DNA of 54,401 nt from Oscillibacter sp. GTDB lineage: Bacteria > Bacillota > Clostridia > Oscillospirales > Oscillospiraceae. Below the pieces are notes generated by a model. That model had not been told where the DNA came from and ran no database searches. It worked only from the letters and a program-made list of their open reading frames with translations. The translations under genes were made by a program, and so were the position numbers. This document shows, one piece after another, positions 32,143-48,671 of this stretch. Location: positions 1 through 54,401 of the forward strand of contig JAAVHC010000070.1 in NCBI GenBank assembly GCA_014799925.1. The letters are read 5' to 3'. Within the stretch, counting starts at the first letter, position 1. Every line of letters starts with the position of its first letter.

Positions 32143-32600
32143 CCGGGGCCTCCGCGGCCCCGGACCCTGCGGTTACTTTTTGTACGAACAAAAAGTAACC
32201 AAAAAGTCGCTCAAACCAAGGTTTGAGAATCCTTTTGGCGTCGCCGAAGGCGACGCCTTTTTTGTTTTTGCGCTGATCCTGTCGTCCGTCCGGTCTAAAC
32301 CGGACCTGCTCCCTTGTGCCGGGCGAAGCGGCTGTCCAACGATGTTGTCGGTGATCCCTACCGTATCGCTTCGGGTCCTCCCGGCGGTGGTGAGCATTCT
32401 GTCCAGAAGCGGCTTAGCTTCCTCTGGGTACGTTAGGACCTGTGGGTAGACGCAGAAGTCCGGCGCACCAACGAAGGAACTATCGACAGAATAAACCTGG
32501 CACGTCGGAGCGAAAATGAGTAAAACCATTCAGGGGATTCTCAAGGGGGCTCGCCCCCTTGAGGACACTTTTGCTACTTTTCCTGCAAGGGAAAAGCAGG
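32143..32600. repeat. Composite structured element A (about 460 bp)
   Basis: The left end has CCGGGGCC/GGCCCCGG (32143-32163), a 12-bp perfect stem GGTTACTTTTTG/CAAAAAGTAACC (32171-32200) and CTCAAACC/GGTTTGAG (32210-32227). The right end carries the same kind of parts inverted: GGGGATTCTC, an 11-bp stem CTCAAGGGGGC/GCCCCCTTGAG (32540-32563), ACACTTTTGCTACTTTTCC and its partner (32577-32596). The core of about 300 bp shares long blocks with the element at 39261-39683 in inverted orientation. No convincing gene; one minus-strand frame is open across it. Confidence 0.75.
32237..32263 (+). terminator. Plus-directed intrinsic terminator inside element A
   Basis: GGCGTCGCC-GAA-GGCGACGCC (32237-32257) followed by TTTTTT. 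It points against the surrounding minus-strand operon, so it would end a transcript running rightwards from the iolB side. Confidence 0.6.
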
Positions 32601-32640
32601 CCCCGTCCCCTGCCCCGGCTAAGGGCGAGTCAAAATAACC

Positions 32641-33543
32641 TCACAGCCCCGTGTGCTCCCTGATATACGCCCTGGCCTTCATGGCATATTCCAGCGGGTC
32701 CGCCCTGGCGGGGTCCTGCTCCGCCTCCACCAGCAGCCACCCCTGGTATCCCGCGTCAGACAGCACCCTGAATACGGGATCGAAATCCACGTTTCCGTCG
32801 CCGGGCACGGTGAACGCCCCGTTCCGCACCGCCTGGAGGAAGCTCCAGTCGTTCTTCCGGGCCTCTTCCACCACGGCGAGCCGCATGTCCTTCAGATGCA
32901 CGTGCCCCACCCGGTCCACGTACTTTTTCAGCATGGACAGCGGGTCCTCCCCGGCAAAAGTGAAGTGTCCGGTGTCGTAGCACAGGAACACGTACCGGGG
33001 GTCAGTATTGGCCATCATCCGGTCCGTCTCCTCCGCCGTCTGGACCACGGTGCCCATATGGTGATGGAAGCACAGCCTGAAGCCCCGGTCCGCGGCAATC
33101 CTGCCCAGCTTGTTGAGACCATCGCACAGGCGGTCCCATTCGGCGTCATCCATAACGTGCCTGTGATTTCCGGTGAGGACGGGGGTATCCATCTGCCCCT
33201 GAATGCTGTAGCTCTGCTCGCTGACGTTGATGCGGTCCGCTCCAACAGCGGCGAGAAAATCCAGCTCCCTGACAAATTCCGCCTCCACCTCCTCACAGGG
33301 CCTGGTGAGCAGGAAGGAGGAGAACCACCGGCTGGCGATCCGCATCCCCCGCAGGTCCAGCTGAGCCTTCAGCTCCGTCGGGTCAGAAGGGTACTTGTTT
33401 CCGATCTCGCAGCCCGTAAAGCCCGCCAGGGCCATCTCGCTGACAGTCTGCCGGAAGGTATTCTCCGCGCCCAGCTCCGGCATGTCGTCGTTGCACCAGC
33501 CAATGGGCGCAATGCCCAATTTTACCGTTTTCGGATCAAACAT
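32641..33543 (-). CDS. iolE: Inosose dehydratase
   Basis: 300 aa, xylose-isomerase-like TIM barrel. IAPIGWCNDDMPELG at the N-terminus is the usual IolE opening; metal ligands are expected in NVSEQSYS, LCFHHHMGT, CYDTGHF and VGHVHLKDMR. It dehydrates scyllo-inosose to the diketo compound used by IolD. Coding ends 38 bp after element A and starts 17 bp after malic enzyme, so the genes are co-transcribed. Confidence 0.92.
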   Translation of the reverse strand: MFDPKTVKLGIAPIGWCNDDMPELGAENTFRQTVSEMALAGFTGCEIGNKYPSDPTELKAQLDLRGMRIASRWFSSFLLTRPCEEVEAEFVRELDFLAAVGADRINVSEQSYSIQGQMDTPVLTGNHRHVMDDAEWDRLCDGLNKLGRIAADRGFRLCFHHHMGTVVQTAEETDRMMANTDPRYVFLCYDTGHFTFAGEDPLSMLKKYVDRVGHVHLKDMRLAVVEEARKNDWSFLQAVRNGAFTVPGDGNVDFDPVFRVLSDAGYQGWLLVEAEQDPARADPLEYAMKARAYIREHTGL

Positions 33544-33560
33544 CGCCGAATCCTCCCGTT

Positions 33561-34733
33561 TTATATCCGCGCCACGCCGGAGGCCTTCGCGGCCTCGGCC
33601 ACAGCCCTGGCGACGGCGGGGCCTACCCGCTTGTCGAATGCCTTGGGGATGATGTAGTCGGCGCTCAGCTCCTCATCGGAAATCAGCTCCGCCAGGGCGC
33701 GGGCGGCGGCAACCTTCATCTCCTCGTTGATATCGCTGGCCCGCACGTCAAAGGCGCCGCGGAAGATACCGGGGAAGGCCAGCACGTTGTTGATCTGGTT
33801 GGGGAAGTCGCTGCGGCCCGTGGCGATGACCGCCGCGCCGCCCGCCCTGGCGTCCTCCGGGAAGATCTCCGGGGTGGGGTTGGCGCAGGCGAAGATAATG
33901 GCGTCCCGGTTCATGGTTTTCACCATCTCTGTGGTGACGGTGCCGGGGGCGGAGACGCCGATGAACACGTCCGCGCCCACCAGCACATCGGCCAGAGAAC
34001 CGGACTTTTTCTCCAGGTTGGTGACCTGGGCCATTTCCTCCTTGATCCAGTTCAGGCCGTCCCGGCCGGCGTAGATCGCGCCCTTCCGGTCGCACATGGT
34101 GACATGCTGAAACCCGGCGGACAGCAGCAGCTTCACGATGGACACCGCCGCCGCGCCCGCGCCGGAGGTGACGATCTTCACGTCCTCCTTCTTCTTGCCC
34201 ACCACCTTCAGGGCGTTGGTCAGGCCCGCCAGGGTGATGACGGCGGTGCCGTGCTGGTCGTCGTGGAAGATGGGGATGTCGCACTTCTCCTTCAGCTTCC
34301 GCTCGATCTCAAAGCACCGGGGGGCGGCGATATCCTCCAGGTTGATGCCGCCGAAGCTGCCGGACATGAGGTAGACGGCGTTGACAAACTCGTCCACGTC
34401 GTGGGTCTTGACGCACAGAGGGAAAGCGTCCACGCCGCCGAAGGACTTGAAGAGGACGCACTTGCCCTCCATGACGGGCATACCGGCCTCCGGGCCGATG
34501 TCCCCCAGCCCCAGTACCGCGCTGCCGTCGGTGATGACGGCGCAGAGGTTGTGGCGGCGGGTCAGCTCGTAGCTCTTATTGATATCCTTCTGGATCTCCA
34601 GGCAGGGCTGGGCCACGCCGGGGGTGTAGGCCAGGGACAGGTCGTCCTTGCTCTCCACGGGCACGGTGGCAATGACTTCGATCTTTCCCTTCCACTCCTC
34701 ATGGAGCCGGAGGGATTCCTTTGCGTAATCCAT
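33561..34733 (-). CDS. NAD(P)-dependent malic enzyme (decarboxylating)
   Basis: 390 aa, the short bacterial malic-enzyme form without a phosphotransacetylase tail. Motifs: [12 protein letters not shown] (catalytic Tyr), [16 protein letters not shown] (catalytic Lys), [13 protein letters not shown] (metal-binding acids), [12 protein letters not shown] (NAD-binding loop). It converts L-malate to pyruvate and CO2. TAAGGAG lies before the ATG, 14 bp after larA. Its position next to a LarA-family racemase suggests use of malate of both configurations. Cofactor preference is not clear from sequence. Confidence 0.92.
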
Positions 34734-34747
34734 AGCAGTTTTTCTCC

Positions 34748-36007
34748 TTATTCTTGTTTCACGATCCGCGGCAGCGTGGAGCCGCCGCAGGGCATGGCCA
34801 GCACGGTTGCATCCGGCCCCATTTTCTCAAACGCCGCATCCAGCGCCTCCTGTACGGAGGGCTGAGGCGTGAGGAAAATGGACCGGACAAAATCCGGCTT
34901 CAGATCGCTCACCAGGTAGATATCCGCCTTTTCCAGGGTCATGGCGATGGCGGCGGCCTTGTGGCCTCCCAGCTGGAAGTCCCGGCCAATGCGCTCGATC
35001 ATGGCCTGAGGAGACTCGGATTTGGTCATCCACTCCTCAAACACCCGCTCCCCCAGCCCCTCCTTACAGGAACCGATGAGGACGATCACCCCGCCGGGGT
35101 TCACCGCGTGGCGGGCGTTGTCCAGAGCCTTCTGGGTCTGATACAGGTTCAGATCCTTGGGCGCGCCGCCCTGGCTGACCAGGACGATGTCCGCGCCATG
35201 GGACAGCTCCTTCAGGTACAGCCGATCCAGAAACGCGCACCCGGCCCGGTGGGCCCGGACGGGGTGTCCCGCCGCCGCCCGGATGATCTCCTTGTGCTCG
35301 CTGAGCACCACGTTGAGGATAAAGTCGATGCCGCAGATGGCCCCGGCCTCCTCGATGTCCATCCGCAGGGGGTTGCTCTCCAGCGCCCCGGCGCAGGCAT
35401 CGTTCCGCACCATCATGGAGTGGTTGGACTGGATGGCGTCCCGGGTGGACACGCCCGGCATAATGGCCTTTGCCCCGCCGGAGTAGCCGGCAAAGTAGTG
35501 GTACTCGATGTTTCCCAGGCAGATGCGCCGGTCCGCCTCCGCCACAACGCGGGTGATATCGACAGGCGTTCCGGCGGCGGTGACGCCCATATGGACGCAG
35601 TCCGCCGGGTCGCTGTCCACACAGGCAATTTCATTCCAGGCCCGCTCGCCGGCCAGTTTTCTCCGCTCCTCGTCCGTATGGCGGCGGTGGCTGCCCAGGG
35701 CAAATACCAGAGTAATGTCCTCCGCCTTTACACCCGCCGCGTACAGCTCATCCAGCAGGGCGGGCATGACCTTATAGGTGGGCATGGGACGGGTGATATC
35801 GCTGGTGACGACGGCGATCTTCTCACCGGGCCGGACGATTTCCCGCAGCCTGGGGGAGCCGATCGGCTCCTCCAGCGCCCGCCGGACCTCCGCCTCGCCG
35901 GTGAGGCCCGGCTCCACCTCGTTGGCGTGGAGCACGCCCAGCAGGTTCCTCTCCGGGACCTCCGCCTCCTGCGCGCCCGCGCCGAATCCAAAGCTCAGTT
36001 TCATCAT
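34748..36007 (-). CDS. LarA-family nickel-pincer racemase/epimerase
   Basis: 419 aa. The LarA hallmarks are present: GSHRRHT (first catalytic His), GNIEYHYFAGYSGGAKAIMPG (second His, then the Lys that holds the nickel-pincer nucleotide) and QSNHSMM (third His). LarA homologues racemise 2-hydroxyacids; lactate, malate and sugar-acid members are known. The neighbouring malic enzyme makes malate a reasonable substrate guess. The cofactor genes larB, larC and larE are not in the window and must be elsewhere if the enzyme is active. Two adjacent ATGs (36007, 36004) are both served by GGAG. Confidence 0.85.
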   Translation of the reverse strand: MMKLSFGFGAGAQEAEVPERNLLGVLHANEVEPGLTGEAEVRRALEEPIGSPRLREIVRPGEKIAVVTSDITRPMPTYKVMPALLDELYAAGVKAEDITLVFALGSHRRHTDEERRKLAGERAWNEIACVDSDPADCVHMGVTAAGTPVDITRVVAEADRRICLGNIEYHYFAGYSGGAKAIMPGVSTRDAIQSNHSMMVRNDACAGALESNPLRMDIEEAGAICGIDFILNVVLSEHKEIIRAAAGHPVRAHRAGCAFLDRLYLKELSHGADIVLVSQGGAPKDLNLYQTQKALDNARHAVNPGGVIVLIGSCKEGLGERVFEEWMTKSESPQAMIERIGRDFQLGGHKAAAIAMTLEKADIYLVSDLKPDFVRSIFLTPQPSVQEALDAAFEKMGPDATVLAMPCGGSTLPRIVKQE

Positions 36008-36030
36008 CTGTTCTCCTATTTAAGCGCCAT

Positions 36031-36102
36031 TTCTCGTTACTGTGCGGCAGATGTTGGTTTTCCGCCGCATGACAGAGCGAAGTGGCCGTCCGCCTAGGAC
36101 TT
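36031..36102 (-). repeat. 71-bp intercistronic repeat, copy 1 (transketolase-larA)
   Basis: Near-copy of 29101-29171 in the same orientation. It begins at the stop codon of the transketolase C-terminal subunit and can fold by TGCGGC/GCCGCA. The stop codon itself lies inside the repeat. Confidence 0.8.
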
Positions 36103-37059
36103 TCTGGCTAAAACCGCTTTTACCTCTTCCACGATATGGGCGGCGGTGAGGCCGAAGCGCTCCTGGAGGTAGCCCTGAGGGCCCACCTCGCCGAACTCGT
36201 CCTCCACAGCCACGTATCCGGCGGGAACGGGGCACTTCCGGGCCAGGACCTCGCTGACGGCGGACCACAGGCCGCCGTACTTGTTGTGGTTTTCCGCCAC
36301 GACCGCCGCGCCGCATTTCTTCGCCCAGGTCTCCACGGCCTCCTCATCCAGGGGCTTGATGGTAAACATGTCGATGACCGCCGCCTGGACGCCCTCGGCC
36401 TCCAGGGTCTTCGCGGCCTGCATGGCCTCGTGAACCATGATGCCGGCGGCGAAGATGGCAACATCACAGCCCTCCCGGAGGACGACGGCCTTGCCGATGG
36501 GCAGCTCGCTGCCCTCCTCGTAGACTCTGGCGTACTGCTTCCGGCCCACCCGGATAAACTTCACGCCGGGACGGTCCACGCACTGGGCCAGCACGCTGGA
36601 GAGCATGGCGGGGTCGGTGATGTCGATGACCGTCGAACCCGGCAGGGCCCGGTACAGGGCCACGTCCTCGAAGGGCATGTGGGTGCCGCCGTTCATGGTG
36701 GCGGTGACGCCGGGGTCGGTTCCGATGATGGTGATGTCATTTTTCGCGTAGCCGCCGCTGAGAAACGCCTGGTCATAGCACCGGCGGGAAGCGAAGGGGC
36801 CGAAGGTGTGGACGATGGGCTTGAACCCGGCGGAGGCCAGGCCGCAGGCCACGCCCACCATGTTGGCCTCTGCAATGCCGCAGTTAATGGCCCGGTCAGG
36901 GTGGGCCGCGGCCCACTTGGCGGTGCCGATGCAGCTCATGAGGTCCGCGTCCAGATAGATGACGTCCGGGTCTTTTTCCGCCAGAGCGGGGATGGTCTCA
37001 CCCAGCACGCTCTTGCACAGGCGGGGGTCCATTTCTCCTGTATAAACGATCTTCAGCAT
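36094..37059 (-). CDS. Transketolase, C-terminal subunit
   Basis: 321 aa, the Pyr-binding and C-terminal domains of a split transketolase. NCGIAEANMVGVACGLA contains the Glu that activates thiamine diphosphate; TFGPFASRRCYDQ and DPGVTATMNGGTHMPFEDVAL follow. The C-terminal fold starts near VAIFAAGIMVHEAM. It works with the N-terminal subunit encoded 3 bp upstream. Two-carbon transfer between ketose and aldose phosphates is the family reaction. It ends within a 71-bp repeat. Confidence 0.92.
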   Translation of the reverse strand: MLKIVYTGEMDPRLCKSVLGETIPALAEKDPDVIYLDADLMSCIGTAKWAAAHPDRAINCGIAEANMVGVACGLASAGFKPIVHTFGPFASRRCYDQAFLSGGYAKNDITIIGTDPGVTATMNGGTHMPFEDVALYRALPGSTVIDITDPAMLSSVLAQCVDRPGVKFIRVGRKQYARVYEEGSELPIGKAVVLREGCDVAIFAAGIMVHEAMQAAKTLEAEGVQAAVIDMFTIKPLDEEAVETWAKKCGAAVVAENHNKYGGLWSAVSEVLARKCPVPAGYVAVEDEFGEVGPQGYLQERFGLTAAHIVEEVKAVLARKS

Positions 37060-37062
37060 CTC

Positions 37063-37905
37063 TCAGCCCTCCAGTTCCACCAGCCGGGCTTTCAGCTGGC
37101 CGGTCCATCTCTCGAATTGCTCGTCGCTGACGGTGAGGCTGTGGTTCGCGGGGGTGTCCACGACCTCCTGGATACCCGCGCCCTTCTGGGTGTCCAGAAT
37201 GATGGCATAGGGCTTGTCGCCGCCCTGCCGGGTCCGCTCCAGAGCCTCCGCCACGGCCTCCACGTCGCTGCCGTCCACCTTCACGGTGTCAAAGCCGAAG
37301 GCCTCGAACTTGGCGACATAGTCCCCCATGGGATAGATATCCCTGGTCCAGCCGTCCAGCTGCCGCTTGTTCCAGTCCAGCAGGACAACCAGGTTGCCCA
37401 GCTTTTTGGCGGAGGCAAAGGCCATGGCCTCCCAGACCTGACCCTCGTTGCTCTCGCCGTCGCCCACGATAAGGAACGTCCGGGCGTCCCGGCCCTTCAG
37501 TTTATCGCCCAGGGCCATGCCGCAGGCCAGGGACGTACCCTGTCCCAAAGAGCCGGTGGTCATGTCCACGCCGGGGGTCTTGTTCCGGTCGCAGTGGCTG
37601 GGGAGCCGGGTGCCGGGGCGGTTCAGGGTCTTCAGCTCCTCATAGGGGAAGAAACCCTTCACCGCCAGGGTGCCGTACACCGCGGGACCCGCGTGGCCCT
37701 TGGAGCAGACCAGCTTGTCACGCTCCGGCCACTTGGGATTGCTCACATCAATACGCATCTCCCCTCCGTACAGCACCGCCAGCACGTCGCCGATGCTCAG
37801 AGCGCCGCCCAGATGGCCGGAGCCCAGGGAGTGGATGGCCTCCAGCGCCGCCATGCGGATACGGACGGCCAGGGCCTCTAATTCCTTCTTCTTTGCCGTT
37901 TCCAT
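37063..37905 (-). CDS. Transketolase, N-terminal subunit
   Basis: 280 aa, the PP-binding half. HSLGSGHLGGALSIGDVLAVLYG has the conserved His residues, SKGHAGPAVYGTLA is typical, and the ThDP/Mg motif is IVGDGESNEGQVWEAMAFA ending near LVVLLDWNKRQLDG. The start at METAKK is chosen with GAGAGG about 10 nt upstream; the in-frame TTG 24 nt earlier is unlikely. It forms the two-chain enzyme with the next gene. Split transketolases are common in anaerobic Firmicutes and archaea. Confidence 0.92.
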   Translation of the reverse strand: METAKKKELEALAVRIRMAALEAIHSLGSGHLGGALSIGDVLAVLYGGEMRIDVSNPKWPERDKLVCSKGHAGPAVYGTLAVKGFFPYEELKTLNRPGTRLPSHCDRNKTPGVDMTTGSLGQGTSLACGMALGDKLKGRDARTFLIVGDGESNEGQVWEAMAFASAKKLGNLVVLLDWNKRQLDGWTRDIYPMGDYVAKFEAFGFDTVKVDGSDVEAVAEALERTRQGGDKPYAIILDTQKGAGIQEVVDTPANHSLTVSDEQFERWTGQLKARLVELEG

Positions 37906-37946
37906 GTCGCAGTCACCTCTCAATTTCAAAATTCATGCAGGTCCTG

Positions 37947-39197
37947 TCACTGACCCAGACCGGCCCCGTGGCGCAGGGCCTTTACCACCGGCAGCTCCTC
38001 CCCGGTCAAAAACCGGATCAGCGCGCCGCCGCCGGTGCAGATATAACCCATTTTGTCCGTCAGGCCGTACTTTTCCGTGGCGGTGATGCTGTCGCCGCCG
38101 CCCAGGACCGTGTGTCCCTCCGTGTCCGCCAGGGCCTGCCAGACCGCTTTTGTCCCCGCCTCGCTGGGCTCCTGCTCGAAGACGCCCATGGGACCGTTGA
38201 CAAACACGGTTTTCGCGCTCAGGATGGCCTCGCGGTAAATTTGTGCGGTCTCGCCGCCCACGTCCACGGCGGCAATGTCCGCCGGAACGCCGCCCAGCGC
38301 CGCCTCCCGGCGCTCACCGCCCTCTACCCATGCCAGATCCACCGGAAGAGTGATCTGTTCACCGTACCGGGCGTACAGCTCCTTTGCTTTCTCAATGTAC
38401 TCGCCGTAGTTGGACTTCATGATGAAGTCCACGCTGCCCTGACCGATCTCTTTGCCCAGGGCGGCGAGGAAGATGTTGCCCACCAGTCCGCCGGTGAGGA
38501 TACGGTCCGCCACTCCCCGGTCCAGGACGGTTTTCATCATCAGAAAGGCATCGGAGATCTTGGCCCCGCCCAGCACGAACACACAGGGCCGGACCGGTTC
38601 CTCCATGACCTGGGAGACGGTGCAGAACTCCTTCTCAAAGAGCCTCCCCATACAGGAGGGCAGCACCTGCTCAAAGCCGCAGAGGCTGGGCTGGTCCCGG
38701 TGGGCAGCGGCGAAAGCGTCGCAGACGTACAGGTCCGCCAGAGGGGCCAGCTTCTCCACCAGCAGGGTCTTCGCCTGCTGCTCGTGGGTCAGGCGGAGCT
38801 TCATCTCAAAGAGGGTCTGCTCCTCCGCCACAAAGCGGACGTTGTCCAGCAACAGGATCTCGCCGTTTTGCAGCTCCTGAATCGCCGCCCGGGCGGCGGG
38901 GCCGCATACGTCGTCGATCCATTTCACTTCCCGGCCCAGCAGGCGGGTGAGAACCGCCGCATGGGGCCTGGTGGTGTAATAATTCTTGTATTCAATGTCG
39001 CTGCCCTGGTGGGCCAGGAGGACCACTTTCGCCCCCTTGTCAGAGAGCTCCCGGATGGTGGGGACGCAGGCCTCGATGCGGTTGATGCTTTTTAAGGCGC
39101 CTTTTTCCCGGTCCACGGGCTGGTTGATGTCCACCCGGCAGAGGACGGTCCTGCCCTCAGCCTGAATATCATCAAGGGTCTTGATTCCAAAACGCAT
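37947..39197 (-). CDS. pgk: Phosphoglycerate kinase of archaeal type
   Basis: 416 aa. It has RVDINQPVD near the start, NRIEACVPTIREL, VVLLAHQG, LLLDNVRFVAEEQ, VLGGAKISDAF, VFVNGPMGVFE and GGGDSITATEKYG. AHQG instead of bacterial SHLGRP, and the overall pattern, are those of archaeal PGKs; the Arg of GRP is replaced (GSD). It makes ATP and 3-phosphoglycerate from 1,3-bisphosphoglycerate, supplied by the archaeal-type GAPDH upstream. GGAG lies 6 nt before the ATG. Separated from gap by element B. The archaeal type is my reading of motifs and should be tested by phylogeny. Confidence 0.85.
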   Translation of the reverse strand: MRFGIKTLDDIQAEGRTVLCRVDINQPVDREKGALKSINRIEACVPTIRELSDKGAKVVLLAHQGSDIEYKNYYTTRPHAAVLTRLLGREVKWIDDVCGPAARAAIQELQNGEILLLDNVRFVAEEQTLFEMKLRLTHEQQAKTLLVEKLAPLADLYVCDAFAAAHRDQPSLCGFEQVLPSCMGRLFEKEFCTVSQVMEEPVRPCVFVLGGAKISDAFLMMKTVLDRGVADRILTGGLVGNIFLAALGKEIGQGSVDFIMKSNYGEYIEKAKELYARYGEQITLPVDLAWVEGGERREAALGGVPADIAAVDVGGETAQIYREAILSAKTVFVNGPMGVFEQEPSEAGTKAVWQALADTEGHTVLGGGDSITATEKYGLTDKMGYICTGGGALIRFLTGEELPVVKALRHGAGLGQ

Positions 39198-39260
39198 AGA
39201 TTTCTCCTTTTTGCCCTCAACGGGGCAGAGGGTTACCCGCCCACGGGGCGGGGACATGAT

Positions 39261-39683
39261 TAACTTTTCGCCCGCGCGAAAAGTTACAAAAGCGCCCTCA
39301 AGCGTGCAGTGCCCGCTGTGCGGGCACTGGCAGCCTAAACCGCCGTAGGCGGCCCACGGGGGCCCGCCCCCCTTGAGAATCCCCGAAGGTGTTTATTTAT
39401 TGGCACGACGTGGTGCGCCGATTCTCCCGACCATGCCGGTCAGGACCCGCCGGGAGTCCCCGAAGCGATACGGTAGGGATTACCGGAAACATCGTTGGGC
39501 AGACGCTTCGCCCACCAAATCACACCCGCAGCCCGGTTCAGGCCGGACGGTCTACAGGACCCGCGCAAAACAAATAACCCCCCGTAATTATAAGGGGTCC
39601 AGGACCTTGGTCCTGGCACGCTTTTGGGTACTTTTCCCGTGGAGGAAAAGTACCCGCAGGGTCCGGGGGCGCGCAGCCCCCGG
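39261..39683. repeat. Composite structured element B (about 420 bp)
   Basis: Left end: TAACTTTTCG/CGAAAAGTTA (39261-39286), CAAAAGCG, CCTCAAG ... CCCCTTGAGAATCCCC (39296-39384), the latter hairpin split by extra hairpins AGTGCCCGC/GCGGGCACT (39308-39328) and CCGCC/GGCGG (39340-39352). Right end: CCAGGACC/GGTCCTGG (39599-39616), GGGTACTTTTCC/GGAAAAGTACCC (39626-39655), CCGGGGGC/GCCCCCGG (39663-39683). The core, with a frame of 62 codons at 39389-39577, matches element A. It lies between gap and pgk. Confidence 0.75.
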
Positions 39684-48410: not shown

Positions 48411-48582
48411 CGAGCCACGCCCATGCGTGGAGACGTTCGCTGCTTTTCCCTTCTGCGTCTATTTTCATGCGGTTATTGATACTCCCTGCCGCATCGCTAT
48501 GGGAACTCCCGGCTGCGGCGAAGGGATAGACTGAGAAACGGCTTCGCCCCTCTGTGTTCGTTAGAACAACCCCGCAATAATA
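48411..48582. other. Gene-free stretch before element C
   Basis: No convincing gene. It may be a diverged core of the composite element: a GCTTCGCCC block at 48541-48549 resembles one in elements A and B, but the match is weak. Confidence 0.35.
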
Positions 48583-48671
48583 AAGGATTCCAAAACCATT
48601 GGTTTGGGCGGCTTTTTGGTGACTTTTGGTCCGCACAAAAAGTCACCGGGGTCCGGGGCCGGAGGCCCCGG
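48583..48671 (+). repeat. Right end of composite element (copy C)
   Basis: AAGGATTCC, a hairpin with CCAAAACC/GGTTTGG (48590-48607), GGTGACTTTT/AAAAGTCACC (48618-48647), then GGGGTCCGGGGCC with CCGGGGCC/GGCCCCGG (48653-48671). The order and spacing match the outer end of elements A and B. Confidence 0.7.

Follow-up and report, generated by a model that had tools for sequence, protein, structure and literature searches.

Short dispersed elements with outward-facing pseudoknotted arms in the intergenic gaps of an Oscillibacter genome

Two gaps of an inositol operon in an Oscillibacter sp. genome (2.97 Mb, 97.86% complete; assembly GCA_014799925.1) hold related elements, here called A and B. Both lie in the stretch that we analysed, contig JAAVHC010000070.1 with its 54,401 nt (the window), and both consist of a core between two folded ends, or arms. 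Taken together, the data suggest that A and B are non-autonomous mobile elements whose layout is that of a miniature inverted-repeat transposable element (MITE) and of a REPIN, with two outward-facing, RNA-like folded arms; we put the probability of this reading at about 0.6. The elements are dispersed, present or absent at orthologous junctions and evenly oriented, and their arms are conserved through compensatory changes. In what follows, G, C and L numbers denote genomes, contigs and loci.

Layout of A and B and their copies in the genome

The same arrangement occupies both gaps (32143-32600 and 39261-39683) in opposite orientation, as the sequence-only reading of this DNA had described, and over 245 bp A matches B at 71%. 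Going outward from the core, each end is made up of an optional hairpin h4, hairpin h3, a strand of 3-4 nt, UUUU(U)G, hairpin h2 and hairpin h1. The loop of h2 pairs with the strand after h3, giving an H-type pseudoknot. The CTTTT/AAAAG arms reported earlier are h2, the CTCAA/TTGAG or GGTCC arms bordered by GGATTC or GGGGTCC are h3, and both hairpins are real; the core blocks named then recur as well. The GC-rich h1 past h2 at each end, the pseudoknot that the h2 loop forms with the spacer between h3 and h2, and a third, decayed copy (about 48437-48670) are additional to that description. In B the second stem had been seen to be split, and the cause is an insert of about 56 nt with two hairpins within h3. 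The orthologue of B in G017 also has this nested insert, with compensatory changes (judged by eye). Both elements fold more stably than their dinucleotide shuffles (A, z = -5.7; B, z = -4.8). The cores are conserved in sequence and fall into classes X, Y and Z. The X and Y arms are inverted relative to each other, share the h3-pseudoknot-h2 structure and differ at their tips past h2. The features are as follows, R1 being a covariance model of the element end.

32143-32625, + strand: element A, type Xa-Y (Xa arm left, Y arm right), in the iolE/iolB gap; outer edge approximate
32143-32163, no strand: A, Xa arm, outer GC-rich hairpin h1, an inverted repeat in the sequence
32171-32200, - strand: A, Xa arm, hairpin h2 (GGTTACTTTTTG..CAAAAAGTAACC), loop ACGA at 32184-32187
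32207-32209, - strand: A, Xa arm, pseudoknot strand (TCG on the + strand), partner of the h2 loop CGA at 32185-32187
32210-32227, - strand: A, Xa arm, hairpin h3 (CTCAAACC..GGTTTGAG)
32172-32232, - strand: A, Xa arm, h3 and h2 as R1 match, 77.9 bits
32237-32257, no strand: A, optional hairpin h4 (GGCGTCGCC..GGCGACGCC), then a T run on the + strand, terminator-like
32264-32388, - strand: A, core of class Xa, read outward on the - strand; approximate
32389-32527, + strand: A, core of class Y, read outward on the + strand; approximate
32535-32600, + strand: A, Y arm, with h3 at about 32540-32563, spacer, and h2 at about 32574-32599; R1 63.2 bits
39236-39683, - strand: element B, type Xa-Y reversed (Y arm left, Xa arm right), in the GAPDH/PGK gap, Y core shortened
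39260-39382, - strand: B, Y arm, h2 and h3 with the nested insert within h3; R1 48.6 bits
39303-39358, no strand: B, two-hairpin insert of about 56 nt in h3, position approximate; same insert in the orthologue L208
39594-39654, + strand: B, Xa arm, h3, pseudoknot strand and h2; R1 66.3 bits
39663-39683, no strand: B, Xa arm, outer hairpin h1
about 48437-48670, + strand: third copy, decayed, of which the hinge and one arm remain; R1 match 48585-48646 (+), 60.3 bits

The genes of the window include iolE, an iolB-like gene (score below the curated cut-off), a malic-enzyme-like gene and a malate racemase, together with two transketolase halves, a PGK-like gene and a type II GAPDH.

A BLAST search of the genome gave 55 matching pieces with A as query and 65 with B (40 candidate places scored per search). 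R1 gave 149 matches, 18 of which are weak opposite-strand duplicates of stronger ones. This leaves at least 131 ends; as 150 of 1445 candidates were scored, the number is a minimum. When neighbouring ends within 3.5 kb are taken together there are 52 outward-facing pairs, no inward-facing pair and two same-direction pairs, and 27 ends are unpaired. Forty-six of the outward pairs span 357-551 bp and the other six 955-2692 bp; measured between the outer h2 hairpins, most copies are 0.36-0.55 kb long. The copies are, as in MITEs, short, non-coding, dispersed and numerous.

Covariation and predicted structure of the arms

The H-type pseudoknot is very strongly backed by covariation. In 30 aligned ends 96.8% of cells are paired, in comparison with 74.5% in shuffled ends and 35-52% if partners are displaced by 1-3 columns. 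The covariation score is 0.590 (shuffles, 0.185); the count of further pair types, 30, is not above that in shuffles (32.1). Across the 118 distinct ends found in this genome, standard pairing is seen at the three inner pairs of the pseudoknot in 118/118, 117/118 and 99/116 cases, and the first of these pairs is AU in 33, CG in 33, UA in 31, GC in 17, GU in 2 and UG in 2. The same three pairs are standard in 109/109, 104/109 and 100/109 cases among 110 distinct ends from relatives, which were collected with a model lacking the pseudoknot. A possible fourth pair is weak. Whether stem substitutions compensate had been a question of the sequence-only reading, and in the ends they clearly do.

Two blocks hardly vary, namely the UUUU-G linker and the C-UUUU / AAAA-G part of h2: their columns are 97-100% invariant, apart from three at 91-93% among relatives, as measured on matches picked by a model that favours these letters. 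Stem positions outside these blocks are mostly variable. Such invariance amid variable stems is the pattern required by a U.A-U triple helix, and it suggests that the U4:A4 part of h2 forms one with the UUUU linker, which would lock the pseudoknot. Telomerase RNA and SAM-II contain triplex pseudoknots in which the order is H-type and a U-rich first loop faces the A-U part of the second stem. The arms have the same H-type order; their triplex is only predicted, and we claim no shared function. With so many natural variants of a single fold at hand, the predicted triple helix could readily be put to the test.

Among non-Watson-Crick cells, read on the outward strand, G-U outnumbers A-C by 18:5 in this genome and by 17:4 in relatives (together 35:9; P = 1e-4 if the cells were independent, which they are only in part). 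The excess favours a single-stranded, RNA-like structure that is read outward from the core at both ends. Covariation-backed structure is confined to the ends. RNAalifold on four core classes gave only weak, class-mixed folds, and a helix scan of the cores found no helix in which more than one pair had two or more double changes. A coding core was rejected, as all 27 aligned copies have a frame-changing indel relative to A, and any one frame is open in at most 5 of them.

If A and B are mobile, an enzyme encoded elsewhere could move them. It would recognise the arms as a folded single strand, either RNA or single-stranded DNA, because the pseudoknot requires a single strand. Insertions would survive between genes, with the downstream-facing arm folded in the operon mRNA. 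Recombination may reshuffle arms and cores among copies, and copies probably decay through loss of an arm.

Gene context, orthologous junctions and distribution

Flanks were usable in 47 of the 52 pairs, with genes called by a simple codon model built for this analysis. The element lies between codirectional genes in 37 of them, between divergent genes in 9 and between convergent genes in 1. With respect to codirectional neighbours neither orientation is preferred, 14 elements running Y toward X and 11 running X toward Y. In the 50 of 52 pairs examined, none of the called genes extends across an element, and two of them reach over an edge, by 86 and 95 nt. There are five terminator-like sites in A (shuffles, 0.7; standard deviation 0.8), one of them in the direction of the operon, and one in B (shuffles, 0.8); no promoter-like site was found in A or B. 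With such sites in A, the idea of the sequence-only reading that insertion does not stop the operon may not hold for this element.

A is absent from G023, where the two flank alignments (84 and 86%) leave 17 bp between them, and B is absent from G006, where the alignments (85 and 88%) leave 26 bp. The A site of G017 and G020 has one arm only and a Z-like core; the letters of h3, h2 and h1 of this arm are quite different (by eye) and the fold is kept. The B site is occupied by a two-armed element in G023, and in G017 by a Y arm that keeps the nested insert, the X arm hairpins being missing. Orthologous sites show single arms, a lost arm and swapped hairpins, in line with decay and exchange. The junction between der and a DUF512 gene measures 8-92 bp in five relatives and 0.67-1.35 kb in ten of 24 loci including this genome. 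Insertion polymorphism, a mark of MITEs, is seen at the A and B sites, between species only.

A different explanation is that the arms form an RNA module used by the host between cistrons or at 3' ends, as a stabiliser, attenuator or protein-binding site, which is under selection and spreads mainly by gene conversion, mobility being minor. The strong covariation, the preference for the outward strand, the terminator-like sites in A and the 37 of 47 copies between codirectional genes all agree with this, as does a family outside the class (f124, below) in which the motif ends RNA-like units that are apparently single rather than paired. However, the junction types match the background of the same, partly overlapping loci (202 codirectional, 27 divergent and 18 convergent), and the orientation is even. 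In addition, orthologous junctions lack A or B, or have them truncated or with one arm, so no single site needs them. We consider a host module rather unlikely.

The sequence-only reading had left a choice between a MITE-like element and a structured RNA family, and each half of it has found support. Dispersed copies, empty orthologous sites and even orientation speak for mobile DNA; the covarying, pseudoknotted ends and their one-strand preference speak for an RNA-like nature. It had also called for a search for empty sites and target duplications. Empty sites exist for both A and B, but no target duplication is visible at these sites or in young copies, and this is one of several points that weigh against our preferred reading. 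The empty sites may be losses. One species per lineage was compared and no recent insertion was seen, and the young-looking copies in G085 and G254 lie within other repeats with no clear edge; the arms in G254 looked single. The exact boundary of the element was not found. The X and Y tips past h2 are unlike classical terminal repeats, the cores have no covarying helices, and the G-U and A-C counts, besides their dependence, are even for h2 of this genome's own ends (4:3). Finally, no transposase or autonomous copy was found in a genome searched for the Y1_Tnp and TnpB families only.

With A as DNA query, matches were obtained in 24 of 60 genomes: this one, 22 of the 24 others of the genus, none of 12 in the family's other genera and 1 of 23 in the order's other families. 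R1 reached further: within the order it found the motif in 63 of the 295 genomes sampled, in 43 of 149 genera, and in a phylum-wide sample in 6 of 388 genomes (E 1e-6, strict filters), four of them from f124. Exact long matches among named records are to metagenome-assembled genomes titled Oscillospiraceae, Oscillibacter, Pelethomonas and, once, Clostridia. An absence of further copies, or hits to one end without the core, would have counted against the sequence-only reading; there are many copies in related genomes, with both ends and the core. In f124 each of seven loci (L226-L229, L231-L233) has one clear arm, and their cores are rich in hairpins with a GGA loop (19 sites in the seven loci; simulated mean 3.0). 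We take these hairpin series to resemble CsrA-binding sponge RNAs, an idea that is supported for the f124 cores only and not for cores X, Y or Z.

In G254, from another family, ten loci (L191-L200) have the motif with quite different letters, AACG pairing with a CGTT loop, at the end of longer repeats. A second arm was seen in only one of the ten, more than 1 kb away.

Carried genes and comparison with known systems

Most of the six long copies carry genes for XRE-type helix-turn-helix (HTH) proteins, DUF6809 proteins or both. XRE-type HTH and DUF6809 proteins are encoded between the arms in C9, C16 and C72, and between outward-facing arms in an Oscillibacter contig (L112) and an Oscillospiraceae contig (L117), the latter also with a methyltransferase. 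The long copy in C28 encodes an HTH_26 protein. In C38 there are also a HAD hydrolase and a metallo-beta-lactamase-fold protein, and the left end is a weak match (34 bits). The long copy in C7 has an extracytoplasmic function (ECF) sigma factor and a DUF4179-like protein (below cut-off). No transposase was seen in the long copies, which carry these other genes, in a genome searched for two transposition-linked families. Seven of nine DUF6809-like genes lie within 1 kb of an end, a zone that makes up 6.3% of the genome (binomial P = 1.3e-7). The XRE and DUF6809 genes are candidate partners of the elements.

This suggests a further possibility, in which the true unit is a small two-gene system, selfish or regulatory, made of the XRE-DUF6809 pair and the RNA arms on either side, and the short elements are deletion derivatives that still respond to it. 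The proximity of DUF6809-like genes to ends and the gene pairs in C9, C16, L112 and L117 fit this well, and one f124 locus, outside the class, has XRE and DUF6809-like (below the Pfam cut-off) genes beside an arm. However, 12 of 24 der loci have a DUF6809 gene, and arms were found in only five of the eight relatives' der loci scanned, besides this genome. C7 carries the ECF sigma/anti-sigma pair instead, neither the XRE nor the DUF6809 protein resembles a recombinase, and PADLOC gave no match for DUF6809. We regard this unit as quite improbable. Nothing on DUF6809 was found in open-licence PubMed Central (PMC) papers. A bolder and, in our judgement, unlikely proposal is a new class of bacterial mobile system, in which outward RNA arms with a telomerase-like triplex pseudoknot would be the mobility signal (as RNA or single-stranded DNA), XRE-DUF6809 the protein partner and the operon elements miniature parasitic forms.

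Known systems with structured ends were also compared. TnpB right-end element RNAs (reRNAs) are structured ends read outward, and they were considered because the arms are outward-facing and pseudoknotted. In this 97.86% complete genome neither Y1_Tnp nor the TnpB zinc-ribbon domain was found by searches that detected their controls, which speaks strongly against REPIN/RAYT and TnpB reRNA respectively. Moreover, structure in A and B is at both ends, on opposite strands, in contrast with IS200/IS605 elements and reRNAs. No phage or plasmid matched A. Rfam 15 at gathering score, applied to the window and 21 related loci, matched only a tRNA outside the motif in L227, and the best hit of a relaxed search of A (E 0.043) was far below gathering score.

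In PMC3116915, REPINs are inverted hairpin ends around a spacer, associated with RAYT transposases; they are high-copy, extragenic and non-autonomous, with singlets as decay products, all of which recalls the present family. PMC6006769 describes subterminal hairpins of IS200/IS605, and structured ends read outward are the feature in common. That A and B belong to such a system, or to a TnpB reRNA acting in trans, is very improbable and largely refuted, since neither Y1 transposase nor TnpB was found in the incomplete genome and the ends are pseudoknots of about 65 nt rather than hairpins of 20-25 nt. Further differences from REPINs are the spacer of about 250 nt in three classes and the gene-bearing copies. 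MITEs share with our elements the short, gene-free body, inverted ends, dispersal between genes and longer gene-bearing relatives, but here no parent transposon or target duplication was found, and the letters of the ends vary while the fold is kept. MRSC-65-2, a mobile/repeat sequence candidate described in PMC11109978, is likewise a covarying structured motif with dozens of copies per genome in inconsistent orientation; it is one long stem with UYCCGG repeats, whereas the arms have two hairpins and a pseudoknot.

The arm motif is often present in many copies per genome, yet it has no Rfam match, and no description of this repeat family was found in open-licence PMC papers. Many gaps in the operons of gut bacteria are filled by the family, which may alter read-through or the stability of the mRNA there and which confuses annotation. 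Should the mobility signal prove to be the folded arms, transposon ends would here, unusually, be read as a pseudoknotted single strand.

The der-DUF512 junction (L079-L102) is an insertion hotspot, which is empty in some species and elsewhere holds XRE-DUF6809 genes or element arms. Four of its loci (L081, L083, L089 and L093) hold a Phd-like/PIN-like gene pair, named by eye. The ECF sigma/DUF4179-like element (L059, G000:C7:100500-107500) lies between acetyl-CoA synthase (ACS/CODH beta) and RACo-like genes.

Some arms contain repeats of their own. The repeat of about 56 nt consists of two hairpins bordered by TTAGGC-like and CCACGG-like letters and lies within h3 of several copies, giving ends of 117-123 nt: B and ends in L062, L152, L155, L022, L073 and L208. 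A third repeat, palindromic and of about 80 bp (GATTGTGCAATGACCCC..GGGGTCATGCACAATTCAATTCTGCACGGCC..), lies in h1 of some X or Z arms; it was seen past h2 in L002, L023, L026, L155, L170 and L158, and some of its copies themselves have inserts. After h1, X and Z arms have a conserved GCTATCGAATAGAAAC-like motif, often followed by a variable hairpin just before a ribosome-binding site, and G254 has a similar motif, CGATAGAA, in the same position.

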